A stretch of 64,000 nt of DNA from NCBI GenBank assembly GCA_946479285.1, contig CAMLFH010000008.1:141542-205541 (forward strand). The letters run 5' to 3'. This stretch comes from an uncultured Flavobacteriales bacterium (lineage in GTDB: Bacteria > Bacteroidota > Bacteroidia > Flavobacteriales > Crocinitomicaceae). Shown piece after piece: positions 28,883-50,208 of this stretch. Positions within the stretch are counted from its first letter, which is position 1. Each line of letters opens with the position of its first letter. The translations under genes and the position numbers were made by a program. Below the pieces are notes generated by a model. That model worked only from the letters and a program-made list of their open reading frames with translations, made no database searches and was not told where the DNA came from.

Positions 28883-30246
28883 TCAATCCGCATTCGGATG
28901 CGCCATTCTTTCGGGTAAAGATTATTGAACCGATTTCCCAAATGTTTGATCCAGCCCAGTTTGGTTCCTTCAAATGAAACCGTATTAAAACCGCGCTTTC
29001 CTTCTAAACCGAATGTCTCACCTTTCAGGTAATGCAAAGCCTGTTGGCGGGTCAGGGCAATATCAGGAATCTTATTTGAAAGGATTGAAGAATCCAATAC
29101 TAACGCTTCATTCGGAATCAATCCTTTGCGGGAAATTTCGCCCAGCTCTGTTCCTAATTTGATGATGCGCAAATTGGAGTGAAGCAGCTCCACCAATTCG
29201 CCTGAACCCGCTGGAACAGCAAACAGGTAATTGTTCCACTGAACAAACTCCGAATCGGAAGAAACCCATTCATTGAACCAGGATTCAGGTTTCAAACGTG
29301 TCAAAGTGCTTTTCTTCTTCGACTTATTTTTTTGAATGCGTTCTTCACCCAATTTCTCTATGACGACCACATAAAAACCTTCTGTCTTCAATTCGGATGG
29401 AAGCGCATAATGACCTATTCCGTCTCTTCCGTCTTTTGCAAGCGGCAACTCAACAGAATAGATTTTCGAATCGGTCTGCTCCAGGATCCAACGCACATTG
29501 TCTTCGTTTTCCTGGGAATTGAAAGTACAGGTCGAATAGATCAGCTTACCAGTTGGTTTCAAAGAATCCCAAACGTCCATTACGATGCGTTTTTGTCTTC
29601 CTGCGCATAGATTGACCGCTTCTGTCGACCATTCATTTCGTGCATCCGGATCTTTTCGGAACATTCCTTCACCCGAACATGGAGCATCAATCAAAATGCA
29701 GTCAAAAACGCTTTTTAAACCGTCAAAATCCTGTGGGTCGTTGTTGCTGACCAAACTGTTTTTCGCTCCCCATTTGGTGAGGTTTTCCTTTAAAATCCGG
29801 GATCTGTTTTGGATCACTTCATTAGCTAAGAGTAATCCTTTTCCCTGCAGAAAATCAGCAATAAGCGTACTTTTTCCGCCCGGTGCAGCACATAAATCCA
29901 AAATAACCGGTTCTTCCGGAAGATTCAGTTGTCTGAGAATGCTGTCGATAAATTGAGAACCTGCTTCCTGGGGATAATATCTTCCACCATGAAAATGCGG
30001 ATCCAGGGTGAAAATTGGTCGTTCCTTCAGATAAAAACCATTCTTTGACCAGGGAATTTCTTCCAATCCTTCAAAAACGGATCGCATGTCGCCCGAAGCT
30101 TCAGCGATGGCACAATTTCCTTTGGAAGAATTGATCCGAATAGCAACTGGCTGTTCCTGATCCAATGATTGAAGCAAAGAATCTCCCAGAAACGGATCCT
30201 GGCTAACTCGTTCAACGAATGCTTTGGGAAGTTCTACTTTTTTCAT
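28879..30246 (-). CDS. RsmF/NSUN-type rRNA cytosine-C5 methyltransferase
   Basis: The 455-residue RNA m5C methyltransferase has motif I LDLCAAPGGKST (about 116-127), IDAPCSGEGMFR (about 188-199) with the catalytic TC motif partner STCTFNSQENE (about 241), and a C-terminal PUA-like region (GLEGKRGFNTVSFEGTKLGW). Closest to RsmF (16S rRNA C1407), but the precise target is inferred. Residues about 44-53 (IAEASGD) are encoded by a copy of a dispersed palindrome, apparently an in-frame insertion. It overlaps the tsaD stop (ATGA), so the two are coupled. Confidence 0.88.
   Translation of the reverse strand: MKKVELPKAFVERVSQDPFLGDSLLQSLDQEQPVAIRINSSKGNCAIAEASGDMRSVFEGLEEIPWSKNGFYLKERPIFTLDPHFHGGRYYPQEAGSQFIDSILRQLNLPEEPVILDLCAAPGGKSTLIADFLQGKGLLLANEVIQNRSRILKENLTKWGAKNSLVSNNDPQDFDGLKSVFDCILIDAPCSGEGMFRKDPDARNEWSTEAVNLCAGRQKRIVMDVWDSLKPTGKLIYSTCTFNSQENEDNVRWILEQTDSKIYSVELPLAKDGRDGIGHYALPSELKTEGFYVVVIEKLGEERIQKNKSKKKSTLTRLKPESWFNEWVSSDSEFVQWNNYLFAVPAGSGELVELLHSNLRIIKLGTELGEISRKGLIPNEALVLDSSILSNKIPDIALTRQQALHYLKGETFGLEGKRGFNTVSFEGTKLGWIKHLGNRFNNLYPKEWRIRMRID
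30087..30115. repeat. Dispersed palindromic repeat inside the RsmF-like gene
   Basis: TGTCGCCCGAAGCTTCAGCG followed by ATGGCACAA. The same pattern occurs at 11189-11217 between argS and arginase. In the RsmF-like frame (minus strand) it encodes part of the stretch CAIAEASGDM. Confidence 0.6.
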
Positions 30247-39374: not shown

Positions 39375-39382
39375 TATCTTTG
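39375..39382 (+). promoter_or_regulatory. -7 promoter box of the 39.4-kb small transcript (TATCTTTG)
   Basis: TATCTTTG is an exact TAnnTTTG match, and the expected start point (about 39389) falls at the foot of a perfect hairpin (GTCTCT/AGAGAC, 39388-39408). No good -33 TTG at the usual distance was seen. Confidence 0.6.
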
Positions 39383-39387
39383 CACAT

Positions 39388-39577
39388 GTCTCTCGATGAG
39401 GTAGAGACAAAACAAGTAGTAACAATTTTAAAACCGAAGCAATGTTCAAATTCAGTACAACATTAGGAGCTCCAACTGTTCTAGAGGCTAGTGCGCTCAT
39501 GCTTTGGGTTTTCCAGTAACGATTCTAACAATCATTTATATGAAAATCCGAAGCTTCTAGAGGTTTCGGATTTTTTT
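39388..39577 (+). ncRNA. Predicted small transcript (about 190 bases) with micro-ORF
   Basis: The stretch is bounded by a -7 box on the left and a strong intrinsic terminator on the right. It opens with the hairpin GTCTCT...AGAGAC and contains a 25-codon ORF at 39442-39519. The palindrome-centred sequence TTCTAGAG occurs twice, at 39479 and in the terminator loop at 39556, so the two could pair or the loops could dimerise. It may be an independent sRNA or micropeptide mRNA, or the attenuated leader of rtcB. It does not look like tRNA, SRP RNA or tmRNA; 6S RNA was not excluded. Confidence 0.5.
39442..39519 (+). CDS. Micro-ORF of 25 codons
   Basis: Begins MFKFSTTLGA and ends ALMLWVFQ followed by TAA. 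It has ordinary codon use for this window, a promoter box 60 bases upstream and a terminator 24 bases after its stop. It is not a signal peptide with export site, although the C-terminal half is hydrophobic. It could be a leader peptide for attenuation of the downstream rtcB-prfH genes or a free-standing micropeptide. I do not recognise it. Confidence 0.4.
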   Translation: MFKFSTTLGAPTVLEASALMLWVFQ

Positions 39578-39755: not shown

Positions 39756-41144
39756 ATGGGAAATAAGATCAAGGGGAAAGACCTGTTAAAAATAGGCTTC
39801 CCCAACGACAACTCTGTAAACATCGCCCTAGGGCTGATCAGCAGGTATAAAAAGAAAGAAACAAAAGACCGCGTTCTGAAAGAACTTTCCGAATTGCTTT
39901 ACGCTCCGGATGAATACATCGGGGATGGAACATGGGGAAAAGTGGCAGAAGGACTGGTTGCACCGGTTGAGGTGAAATTCAACGAATTGAAGATCGAACG
40001 TTCACCGTTTTTGATCTACGGCGAAAATGAAATTGATGACAAAACAAAACATCAGTTTTACCAGGCTTTGAAATTACCTGTTTCCGTACAGGGAGCTTTA
40101 ATGCCTGACGCACATTACGGTTACGGCTTACCGATCGGAGGCGTTTTGGCAACGGATAATGCAGTGATTCCGTATGGAGTTGGAGTAGATATCGGTTGCC
40201 GGATGTCGCTGAGCATTTTCGATGCACCGGCGTCGTTTTTCAACGGAAAAACACACCAGCTTCAGAATTTGCTTTCGGAGCATACCAAGTTTGGAATGTA
40301 CGAACAGCACACCATCAAACAAGATCATCCGATTATGGAGAACACCTTGTTTCGTGAAATTCCACTCTTGCGAAAGCTGCACGGAAAGGCTTACAAGCAG
40401 TTGGGAACTTCGGGAGGTGGAAACCATTTCGTAGAATTCGGAACGGTAAACATTACTGCAACCGATGCCGGGATTCCTCCGGGAGAATATTTCGCTTTGC
40501 TGAGTCACAGCGGTTCACGCGGATTGGGTGCTGCAATTGCAAAACAGTACACGCAGTCAGCGATTAAACAATGTCCGTTGCCAAGATCAGTTCAGCATTT
40601 GGCCTGGTTGAACCTGGACACGCACGACGGGCAAGAGTATTGGAATGCCATGAATCTTGCCGGTGAATACGCAAAAGCCTGTCACGATGATATTCACGCA
40701 CGATTGACCAAAAAGTTGGGGCTCCGCATGTTGATGACGATAGAGAACCACCACAATTTTGCATGGAAAGAAACCGTGAATGGCAAAGAATGTGTTGTAC
40801 ACCGGAAAGGTGCAACTCCTGCAGGTAAAGGTGAATGGGGAATTATTCCAGGAAGTATGACAGCACCCGGATTTATTGTTCGTGGTCTTGGAAACGCTTC
40901 CAGTTTGAATTCAGCATCGCACGGAGCCGGGCGCGTGTTTTCACGTTCCGAATGCAAGAGCAGATTCACCAGAAGTGGGATGATGAAAATGCTTGCGGAT
41001 TCAGATGTAAGTTTGATAGGCGGGGGAGTAGATGAAGCTCCGATGGCTTACAAGAACATCCATTATGTGATGGGGAATCAGCAGGAATTGGTAGAAACGA
41101 TGGGGACATTTGTTCCTAAAATTGTGAGAATGGAAAAGTCGTAA
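39756..41144 (+). CDS. rtcB: RtcB-family RNA ligase
   Basis: Joins RNA 2',3'-cyclic phosphate (or 3'-phosphate) to 5'-OH ends using GTP and manganese. I start at ATG 39756 (MGNKIKGKDLLKIGFP), giving 462 residues; upstream in-frame codons add an unlikely tail. Manganese and GMP sites are visible: DIGCRM at 145-150 (Cys148), GTSGGGNHFVEFG (about 220), SHSGSRG, NHHNFAWKE and HGAGR at 389-393 with the guanylated His389. The paired prfH four bases downstream marks it as the RtcB2-type partner of PrfH. RtcB without archease or RtcR is seen here. Confidence 0.95.
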   Translation: MGNKIKGKDLLKIGFPNDNSVNIALGLISRYKKKETKDRVLKELSELLYAPDEYIGDGTWGKVAEGLVAPVEVKFNELKIERSPFLIYGENEIDDKTKHQFYQALKLPVSVQGALMPDAHYGYGLPIGGVLATDNAVIPYGVGVDIGCRMSLSIFDAPASFFNGKTHQLQNLLSEHTKFGMYEQHTIKQDHPIMENTLFREIPLLRKLHGKAYKQLGTSGGGNHFVEFGTVNITATDAGIPPGEYFALLSHSGSRGLGAAIAKQYTQSAIKQCPLPRSVQHLAWLNLDTHDGQEYWNAMNLAGEYAKACHDDIHARLTKKLGLRMLMTIENHHNFAWKETVNGKECVVHRKGATPAGKGEWGIIPGSMTAPGFIVRGLGNASSLNSASHGAGRVFSRSECKSRFTRSGMMKMLADSDVSLIGGGVDEAPMAYKNIHYVMGNQQELVETMGTFVPKIVRMEKS

Positions 41145-41148
41145 AAAA

Positions 41149-41874
41149 ATGGACACAAGAGTATTACATATCACAACAGCCAAAGGTCCTTTGGAATGCC
41201 AATTGGCAGCCGGGAAGATTTTGGGAGCTTTACTTGCAGACCTTCGACAAAAAGGATTGCAGGCAGAAGTTCTCGATCGGACAGCGGGACAAGAAAGTGG
41301 CACGATTTTATCAGCTACGATCCAACTCAGCGGAATTGCCATTCAGACAGCAATTCAATCATGGTTAGGGACGATCCAATGGATTCATAGGCCTGCGCCG
41401 AAGCTTCAGCCTAGGAGCAAGAGTCCGTATCGTCCCAATCATGGGAGAAAGAACTGGTTTGTCGGTGTTTTTGAAGTGAATTTGGCGGAAGCTGTTGCCT
41501 GGAATGAAAACGAGATTATTTATCAATCAGTAAGAAGCAGCGGATCAGGCGGACAGCATGTGAACAAAGTAAGTTCGGCAGTTCGTGCAACGCACACTCC
41601 AAGTGGAATAATGGTTTTTGTGCAGGAAAGCCGATCACAGCTTCAAAACAAGAAAATAGCCCTTGAACGCATTCGTGCAAAGCTGGAAAAAGCCCAAAGT
41701 GAAAAGTTGATCGAAGTGGTGAACCAAACGTGGTCGCAGCATCATGAACTGGAACGCGGAAATCCGGTGAGAACATTTACCGGAATGGACTTTAAACCAA
41801 AGAACGAAGTAAAAACCTTTAAGAAACAACGGAACCAATTGAAACAAGAATTGAAACGAGATATGAACCAGTAG
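41149..41874 (+). CDS. prfH: PrfH, release-factor-like ribosome rescue protein
   Basis: PrfH is a short class-I release-factor homologue. It keeps the peptide-release loop GGQ at 134-136 (SGSGGQHVNKVSSAVRATH) and lacks the large stop-codon-reading domain of RF1/RF2. Published work on the enterobacterial pair describes PrfH releasing ribosomes damaged in 16S rRNA, followed by RtcB sealing; that is the likely role here. The 241 residues include an apparent insertion, residues 80-91 (HRPAPKLQPRSK), encoded by a dispersed palindrome just before the conserved SPYRPNHGRKNW. The stop TAG comes from another palindrome. Four-base spacing from rtcB. Confidence 0.92.
   Translation: MDTRVLHITTAKGPLECQLAAGKILGALLADLRQKGLQAEVLDRTAGQESGTILSATIQLSGIAIQTAIQSWLGTIQWIHRPAPKLQPRSKSPYRPNHGRKNWFVGVFEVNLAEAVAWNENEIIYQSVRSSGSGGQHVNKVSSAVRATHTPSGIMVFVQESRSQLQNKKIALERIRAKLEKAQSEKLIEVVNQTWSQHHELERGNPVRTFTGMDFKPKNEVKTFKKQRNQLKQELKRDMNQ
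41386..41421. repeat. Dispersed palindromic repeat inside prfH
   Basis: CATAGGCCTGCGCCGAAGC followed by TTCAGCCTAGGAGCAAG carries the GAAGCTTC core seen in other copies. It occupies 36 bases, a multiple of three, and so keeps the prfH frame while adding about 12 residues. Confidence 0.6.
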
Positions 41875-41901
41875 GGATGCGATGCCTCGCGTCCTTGCTA
41901 C
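41871..41901. repeat. Dispersed palindrome supplying the prfH stop codon
   Basis: GTAGGGATGCGATGC followed by CTCGCGTCCTTGCTAC, imperfect copy of the TAGG family. The TAG at 41872-41874 is the prfH stop codon. Confidence 0.6.
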
Positions 41902-41927: not shown

Positions 41928-42410
41928 ATGACAACAACAAATATTTACCTGGTAAAAGCCCTGGATTCTTATCCATATAACCTGGAAGAAGCTTTGGAAT
42001 CCTTGAACTACGCAATGGCGTATGAAGAGAATAACCCGATTGCGCTTTGTCTGATGGGAAGAGTGAATCTGGAAATTTTCAAGGATTATCCGCTGGCAAA
42101 TACCTATTTCAGAGAAGCGCTTGCCGCAAATGTGGATTACCTGGAAACCTATTCTTATTTCCTGGATTGCTTGTTAATTCAGGAAGAATTTGAAGAAATG
42201 GTCAAATTACTGGCTTTTGCCAGAAAGCGAAAAGGAATTGATAGAGGATTGCTTTTCTATTACGAGGGCTTACTCCTGGAGAAACAATTGAAATTCAAGA
42301 AAGCACAAAAAACAATCAAAGAAGCGATGCTTTTGGCTCAAACAGGTTCTTTTATGTCCGATTTGGAAGAAATGAAGAAGCGTATTGAGAAAAAAATCGC
42401 ACTGAAATAA
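41928..42410 (+). CDS. TPR-like helical repeat protein
   Basis: Starting at ATG 41928 (MTTTNIYLVKALDSYPYN) the protein has 160 residues of paired helices: LEEALESLNYAMAYEENNPIA, ALCLMGRVNLEIFKDYPLAN, FDKAQKTIKEAMLLAQ-like segments (here FKKAQKTIKEAMLLAQTG), consistent with tetratricopeptide repeats and no signal peptide. It is cytosolic and probably binds a protein partner. Its stop TAA shares a base with the ATG of the S41 protease frame (TAATG). Its presence next to rtcB-prfH suggests cotranscription, not proven function. Confidence 0.75.
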   Translation: MTTTNIYLVKALDSYPYNLEEALESLNYAMAYEENNPIALCLMGRVNLEIFKDYPLANTYFREALAANVDYLETYSYFLDCLLIQEEFEEMVKLLAFARKRKGIDRGLLFYYEGLLLEKQLKFKKAQKTIKEAMLLAQTGSFMSDLEEMKKRIEKKIALK

Positions 42411-50133: not shown

Positions 50134-50208
50134 ATGCTTACGCTTGAGCTTATGCTTACGCTGGAGCTTCAGCATAGGCGCACAGCATTGGCGCAGCGCA
50201 GTCGAAGT
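50134..50208. repeat. Dispersed palindromic repeat cluster upstream of dusB
   Basis: CTGAATGCTTACGCTTGAGC, TTATGCTTACGCTGGAGC, TTCAGCATAGGCGCACAGC and GGCGCAGCGCAGTCGAAG belong to the GAAGCTTC family. The 323-base gap 49952-50274 holds this, AATTCAGAATT-type AT repeats, the palindrome TTCCGATAACTATCGGAA near 50224, and the dusB promoter. Confidence 0.55.

Follow-up and report, generated by a model that had tools for sequence, protein, structure and literature searches.

A candidate leader-peptide attenuator ahead of a probable ribosome rescue and repair operon, rtcB-prfH-TPR, in Bacteroidota

In a 64,000-nucleotide (nt) stretch of DNA from an uncultured Flavobacteriales bacterium (hereafter the window), we predict that three adjacent genes, encoding the RNA ligase RtcB, the release-factor-like protein PrfH and a TPR-repeat protein, constitute an operon for the rescue and repair of stalled, RNA-cut ribosomes under the control of a leader-peptide transcription attenuator, a reading to which we assign a probability of about 0.7. 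The original prediction for this locus had recognized rtcB-prfH as a rescue-then-repair pair, an assignment that is supported by the family membership of both proteins and the phylogenetic position of RtcB; it mentioned neither the leader at 39430-39577 nor a 10-residue insert in PrfH. The defence against a ribosome-cleaving toxin or nuclease that it inferred for this cell is a possible role of the pair here.

The leader and its alternative helices

Upstream of rtcB, the region 39430-39577 looks, by its sequence, like a trp-type attenuator, i.e., a leader open reading frame (ORF) combined with alternative 1:2, 2:3 and 3:4 helices. Its parts are as follows.

39375..39382, + strand: promoter box TAtcTTTG, similar to what we take to be the Bacteroidota -7 consensus
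39430..39439, + strand: leader segment 1, AAAACCGAAG, immediately 5' of the leader ORF and pairing with segment 2 (alignment columns 20-25)
39442..39519, + strand: leader ORF of 25 codons, MFKFSTTLGAPTVLEASALMLWVFQ and stop, conserved in position among leaders
39501..39512, + strand: leader segment 2, GCTTTGGGTTTT, within the leader ORF, partner of segment 1 or 3
39543..39554, + strand: leader segment 3, AAAATCCGAAGC, serving as the 5' arm in the terminator and, alternatively, as the 3' arm in the antiterminator
39562..39577, + strand: leader segment 4, GGTTTCGGATTTTTTT, 3' arm of the intrinsic terminator, with a T run

The window terminator 3:4 is a 15-pair stem followed by the T run (-16.9 kcal/mol, z -5.2), the antiterminator 2:3 is of similar energy (-19.3 kcal/mol, z -5.3), and helix 2:3 is mutually exclusive with both 1:2 and 3:4. 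The region has no match to an Rfam family above the gathering score. A short ORF and a terminator are kept 5' of rtcB in the Fluviicola relatives L001 and L002, and more widely the leaders share a single plan: segment 1 with (A)ACGAAG, the ATG, an ORF of 24-28 codons whose last part carries the CTTCG of segment 2, then the stop codon and the terminator 3:4. Of 43 leaders, 24 have a TAnnTTTG box no more than 110 nt 5' of the ORF, against 2.8 expected from mononucleotide shuffles.

These leaders come from a pattern search 5' of rtcB (or 5' of the charged-protein gene where that comes first), which yielded one candidate each from 44 of the 114 sequences searched (upstream DNA is scant in many of the 114); 43 were aligned, the omitted one being L027, in which the pattern picked the wrong ORF (a covariance model later found its leader correctly). 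Across the alignment, helices 1:2, 2:3 and 3:4 are paired in 92.6%, 96.5% and 96.6% of the cells, with 11, 22 and 22 cells, respectively, changed on both sides, whereas a control with the partners slid by 1-3 columns gives 17-70% paired cells and 0-6 both-side changes. On three of five measures, namely paired cells, both-side-changed cells and the covariation score (for helix 1:2, 0.174 against 0.092 when shuffled), each helix beats all 500 shuffles. Segments 2, 3 and 4 also change jointly between lineages, reading GGC/GCC/GGC in Flavobacterium and GAC/GTC/GAC in Polaribacter; the leader peptide thereby carries Leu-Arg-Gly in the former and Leu-Arg-Asp in the latter, with the 2:3 pairing preserved. 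The ORF is conserved in frame and place, the distance from the ATG to segment 2 being divisible by 3 in 42 of 43 leaders. The excess of synonymous changes is modest: 30 of 78 single-change codons are synonymous against 23.6% expected (p 0.0023, 15 independent pairs; L016 and L027 are omitted from the codon counts).

A covariance model of the leader was then run on the window and on 71 loci that had escaped the pattern or been misread by it. These 72 sources gave 25 matches at E up to 1, from which the best for each non-window locus, 15 in all, were accepted (E <=0.0027), leaving out nine weaker second matches of at most 39 bits. Each of the 15 has an ORF immediately following segment 1, and Leu-Arg in segment 2 is seen in 14; 56 of the 71 loci, several of them short of upstream DNA, gave no match. 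At E 0.01 the model matches 30 of 395 Bacteroidota genomes; in 27 the match reaches 60 bits or more, and these are all 26 genomes with both PrfH and the TPR protein together with G230. In those 26, the leader lies 1494-3495 nt 5' of the PrfH match, always on the same contig and strand, and in G230 it lies 177 nt 5' of the match to an orphan TPR gene. At E 0.01 it is absent from both short-PrfH genomes of the 395. The weaker sites of the model, for example G249:C11:457672-457763 and 15 others, are mostly situated away from the operon.

The three genes

The genes downstream of the leader, and the palindromes associated with them, are as follows.

39756..41144, + strand: rtcB, 462 amino acids (aa), a 3'-phosphate/5'-OH RNA ligase of clade A (PF01139, tree and residues)
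41149..41874, + strand: prfH, 241 aa, long-tailed, with a C-terminal helix at about 223-240 (TIGR03072, structure model and alignments)
41388..41418, + strand: 31-nt palindromic repeat within prfH, net +30 nt, encoding HRPAPKLQPRS at residues 80-90, immediately before KSPY
41875..41900, + strand: second palindrome, unlike the one in prfH, between prfH and the TPR gene
41928..42410, + strand: TPR-repeat protein gene, 160 aa, third gene of the putative operon, conserved 3' of prfH

PF01139 matches the window RtcB (profile search, E 2.6e-78), and a sequence check finds all the residues that we take, from RtcB structures, to form the metal and GMP sites (D145, C148, N223/H224, H251, H332/H333 and H389), as the original prediction had stated in singling out C148 and H389. 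The protein scores below the cut-offs of both models for the E. coli-type RtcB2, TIGR03073 (145.3 bits against 271.8) and NF007153 (169.6 against 407), as do the RtcBs of L003, L012 and L061 for the former, and E. coli RtcB2 lies far from it in the RtcB tree. This quick tree of 95 RtcBs, with SH-aLRT supports and without bootstrap, omits L015, L017, L023, L031, L041, L064, L070, L077 and the rows below 400 aa except L080. It places the window RtcB inside a PrfH-linked clade, A (49 rows, SH-aLRT 100), whereas a position outside such a clade would, by the original prediction's own criterion, have refuted it; of clade A, 48 rows are linked to prfH and the remaining one, G339, has its rtcB adjoining a TPR gene. 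A second PrfH-linked clade, B (24 rows, SH-aLRT 100), has members from Sphingobacteriaceae, Chitinophaga, Marinilabiliaceae and others. The 19 fetched Bacteroidota RtcBs away from prfH, fewer than the profile search listed, fall in neither clade. Across the 395 genomes, RtcB matches at E <=1e-70 occur in 53; those of at least 591 bits are confined to 27, namely the 26 PrfH+TPR genomes and G339, with the remaining matches at 539 bits or less.

The window PrfH scores 218.3 bits against TIGR03072 (cut-off 166.65), and its coordinates agree with the original description of a short release-factor-like gene with an intact GGQ (134-136) placed 4 nt past rtcB. That description had denied it a stop-codon-reading domain, which its sequence contradicts: PrfH 8-228 aligns to RF2 132-343, and an SPY anticodon-like motif (SXY type) stands at 92-94. 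Because the alignment to RF2 starts at residue 132 and SPY is kept, the window PrfH is, by alignment, a protein that has the domain for codon reading and is missing domain 1 alone, which is how the family has been described (PMC1586002). In the structure model (mean pLDDT 77), the tail is a helix spanning 223-240. PrfH proteins come in two lengths downstream of an RGNP motif, with 8-15 or 27-44 residues, and our comparison set of 88 rows comprises 55 long and 33 short versions, the latter including L069, whose frame ends early (171 aa), and L079, classed by length (204 aa).

The original prediction had further proposed that the two genes downstream, for a TPR protein and an S41 protease, are overlapping-coupled and might extend the system, and had suggested a search of prfH/rtcB neighbourhoods across Bacteroidota for both. 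In the best 80 of a larger number of PrfH loci, from named genomes and reaching up to 6 kb to each side, the TPR gene lies 3' of prfH in 46, overlapping it in 18, at 0-20 nt in 12 and at more than 20 nt (up to 920) in 16. An S41 homologue is found in none of the 80 (tblastn, E 1e-5, up to 6 kb on either side), and we rejected it as an operon member. As for the coupling, the S41 ORF does touch the TPR stop codon, whereas 53 nt, including the second palindrome, lie between prfH and the likely start of the TPR gene, the ATG at 41928. At this junction, prfH and the TPR gene overlap as ATGA at the DNA level in L001, L002, L093, L097 and L098, and three different palindromes occupy it in the window, L091 and L095. 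Genes also intervene between rtcB and prfH in L007, L011, L013, L019, L020, L027, L032-L034, L038, L042 and L050; by eye, these are zinc-ribbon-like, nucleotidyltransferase-like or of an unnamed family of about 313 aa.

The association of the TPR gene with PrfH recurs at the genome level: PrfH is above its cut-off in 28 of the 395 genomes and a strong TPR match (E <=1.5e-45) occurs in 29, with 26 having both. With the looser limit of 1e-6, the TPR model matches 58 genomes, the next best after the strong set being at 4.4e-17. The two genomes with PrfH alone, G021 and G126, have PrfH frames of 208 and 206 codons, against at least 229 in the other 26; TPR without PrfH is seen in three, G230 and G371 (TPR alone) and G339 (rtcB-TPR). 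In the locus of the last, L083, the TPR gene follows straight after rtcB, prfH is absent and a weak leader match lies upstream; judging from this gene order, RtcB and the TPR protein can persist without PrfH. Across the comparison set, the TPR gene accompanies 52 of 55 long PrfHs and none of 33 short ones, an agreement of 85 of 88; the long PrfHs without it are L027, L042 and L032, the contig ending in the last. Clade A has 38 long PrfHs with TPR, seven short without and three long without, and clade B four long with TPR and 20 short without. Within clade A, the tail and the TPR gene are both absent from two groups, L016/L021/L035 and Myroides with L071. The contrasts that are independent on the PrfH tree are few (sign test p 0.5; row L090 in this tree is an RF2 rather than a PrfH, its label being corrected in the 88-row tables and not in the tree), so the sequence comparison is suggestive only for the TPR gene tracking the C-terminal tail of PrfH. 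The broader proposition, that the TPR gene belongs to the rtcB-prfH unit, is supported by these gene neighbourhoods, and its product is modelled as a nine-helix superhelix (pLDDT 96).

The leader partitions differently. It is found in 46 of 48 clade A rows (L021 has too little upstream sequence and L035 lacks it) and in none of 24 clade B rows, although four of these have a long PrfH and a TPR gene. From these counts and those for the tail, the leader follows RtcB, and the TPR gene follows the PrfH tail.

The palindromic repeat that adds 10 residues to the window PrfH occurs in eight of the 74 close PrfH rows. These are dispersed across the tree, requiring eight changes (shuffled mean 7.7), at least four of which are forced by the starred branches. 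In two relatives without the repeat, the empty site forms the loop of a DNA hairpin of high stability (z -5.8 in L093, -3.3 in L002). The pattern suggests that the repeat was inserted, or precisely lost, more than once at the tip of a single hairpin. The window matches the repeat again at 2108-2125, 30093-30110 and 50161-50178 (3 mismatches; 0 expected). By eye, a core like CGCTTACG..AGCTTCAGC is common to most of 20 repeat sites from two Fluviicola genomes, some of which sit within larger inverted repeats. A copy of the same family in the prfH tail of L094 brings an in-frame stop, giving a PrfH of 221 aa.

Proposed control and competing explanations

Beyond the base pairs, we infer the mechanism by analogy with trp and with PA5471.1, a leader peptide of P. 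aeruginosa. In the absence of a ribosome, helix 1:2 would form, followed by the terminator 3:4, and the operon would be off. A ribosome that reaches the leader stop codon would cover segment 2, so that 3:4 again forms and the operon stays off. In contrast, a ribosome arrested at or just past the leader start codon would mask segment 1, leaving segment 2 to pair with 3 and allowing rtcB-prfH-TPR to be transcribed. PrfH would then free the peptide from the damaged ribosome, after which RtcB would reseal the RNA, with the TPR protein probably serving as an adaptor that acts with PrfH's C-terminal tail. As a more tentative extension, a ribosome whose decoding centre is damaged could load on the leader start, sit over segment 1, free segment 2 and induce its own repair enzymes. 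The inducer would be PrfH's own substrate, a non-elongating ribosome, and the circuit would close on itself.

Several observations weigh against this proposal. Taken alone, the 1:2 region of the window shows no significant stability (z -1.33). The pattern search selected for a motif like segment 1 together with an ORF and a terminator, and hence the pairing percentages of segment 1 and of helix 3:4 arise partly by construction; further, the cells count sequences and not events, and with the genomes being related, the counts are non-independent. On the two remaining measures, helices 2:3 and 3:4 do not stand out: each has two pairs with both-side changes, equalled by 439 and 466 of 500 shuffles, and their numbers of pair types are reached by 500 and 474. 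Helix 1:2, with three such pairs, exceeds the shuffles weakly on these measures (38 and 14 of 500 for pairs changed on both sides and pair types, respectively). The excess at third codon positions is not significant (46/118, p 0.115). Since segment 1 is altered in five leaders (L015, L071, L081, L082 and L083) and L083 is without the CTTCG of segment 2, helix 1:2 may be dispensable. The accepted leaders of L082 and L083, lying 5' of TPR and of rtcB-TPR, respectively, score only 40 and 45 bits and go unreported at the whole-genome settings, and the 16 weaker sites (41-58 bits) in the 395 genomes make leaders before other genes possible. Nor is the distribution seamless: a leader of this type is missing from the long-PrfH+TPR loci L029, L041, L047, L049 and L060, present in five short-PrfH loci (L016, L052, L071, L075 and L076) and wanting in L035 despite its clade A RtcB.

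Among the competing explanations, the one that survives best, though we consider it unlikely, is that what the operon responds to is stalling of ribosomes by antibiotics or from another cause, and not the cutting of 16S rRNA. A leader that senses stalling would be unable to distinguish between causes; moreover, overexpression of prfH raises azithromycin resistance in P. aeruginosa (PMC8327144), and PA5471.1-armZ responds to ribosome-targeting drugs (PMC12057347). What speaks for RNA damage instead is that the substrates of RtcB are 2',3'-cyclic-phosphate and 5'-OH ends (PMC9223846), and that the PDB entries 9mor and 9mq4 are titled as a long-tailed PrfH on the damaged 70S ribosome. It appears improbable that the window merely has an ordinary rtcB-prfH pair with the TPR gene and the upstream terminator as passengers lacking a role in rescue. 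The pair does work elsewhere without a TPR gene, as in the 31 of 80 loci with a short PrfH and none, and the gaps of more than 20 nt in 16 of 46 loci, together with the spacing and palindrome in the window, count in favour of this reading; yet the concordance of the TPR gene with the long PrfH extends over both RtcB clades, and the leaders of at least 60 bits occur only 5' of these operons or of an orphan TPR gene. Least probable of all is that the leader attenuates in response to the supply of an amino acid (Leu, Arg or Phe, for instance) and controls the operon incidentally: clues of leader attenuation exist 5' of amino-acid operons in Flavobacterium psychrophilum (PMC9723704) and Leu-Arg codons recur in segment 2, but stalling within that segment would favour the terminator, no single-amino-acid run stands out in the leader peptides (by eye, uncounted), and the controlled genes are non-biosynthetic.

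Against these alternatives we retain the attenuated rescue and repair operon, which makes the sensing of cut ribosomes and the switching of rtcB-prfH testable through an attenuator with individually mutable segments, while the tie between the PrfH tail and the TPR protein names a candidate third ribosome-repair factor and a candidate binding site for it.

A second leader ORF of another kind, MTE..(H/Y)IS.LS..A (MKHLTSISPLSLIA in L085, where it differs at its start), was found by pattern in 11 of 31 loci examined, in some clade B operons, of Sphingobacteriaceae and Chitinophaga, in each case preceding an rtcB operon with a short PrfH (L057, L059, L061, L063, L065, L066, L067, L069, L072, L078 and L085). 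Its DNA gives one strong site per genome in the nine genomes searched, one of which has a second site with two mismatches. A more specific proposal, that the window-type leader directly senses initiating, non-elongating ribosomes and that the multiple forms of leader point to convergent selection for stall-induced ribosome repair, we hold tentatively, at a little short of even odds.

Comparison with known systems

Like a trp-type attenuator, the window leader combines a leader ORF with the alternative helices 1:2, 2:3 and 3:4; in contrast to it, segment 1 is here placed at the leader start codon, and no obvious cluster of one codon is seen (by eye). Among the closest known systems is the E. 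coli rtcB2-prfH pair, for which colicin E3 data indicate that PrfH rescues and RtcB reseals (PMC9223846). It resembles the window in having the RtcB ligase gene directly 5' of prfH and a GGQ release factor without domain 1. However, the E. coli RtcB is of another subfamily, the window protein failing TIGR03073, and it is for this E. coli pair that the colicin E3 data were obtained; the E. coli PrfH is short, and pepD, with no TPR gene, is listed downstream in the E. coli records L116 and L117. The E. coli pair is itself broken in some strains, being annotated with a frameshifted rtcB in SC487 (L116) and as the pseudogenes ykfJ and prfH in K-12 (L115), and intact in strain Esc30.

For the RFH-RtcB systems, Burroughs and Aravind (2019, PMC6514570) already list a TPR accessory gene, and beside it a Pol-beta NTase, a zinc-ribbon protein and a charged protein. 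Proteins resembling these accessories recur here (labelled by eye and not by family search), whereas section 2.4 of that work names neither a PrfH tail tracked by a TPR gene nor a leader. The structures 9mor and 9mq4 offer a further parallel in a 231-aa PrfH that includes a C-terminal tail, on the damaged 70S ribosome. In Foldseek the PrfH chains of the two entries comprise 208 and 229 residues, so that one of them may have an ordered tail; no chain of either is among the 60 of 88 matches listed for the TPR profile.

The gene pair and its neighbouring TPR gene are already in print, as is the notion that a leader peptide may precede an RtcB-like gene; in searches of open-licence literature, we did not find the Bacteroidota rtcB attenuator, its placement or the link between the tail and the TPR gene. 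In P. aeruginosa, the RtcB-like armZ, a neighbour of prfH, has been proposed to be controlled by PA5471.1 when ribosomes stall (PMC12057347). As in the window, a leader peptide lies 5' of an RtcB-like gene next to prfH, with a proposed stall-dependent transcription attenuation; unlike it, PA5471.1 belongs to another phylum and the Bacteroidota leader has defined helices 1:2, 2:3 and 3:4, the two being likened by description and not by sequence. Leader control of rtcB-prfH would hence exist in at least three forms without evident kinship, the Bacteroidota attenuator, the MTE-type leader and PA5471.1, and this recurrence of different leaders 5' of one gene pair suggests that induction by stalling is integral to the working of the system.

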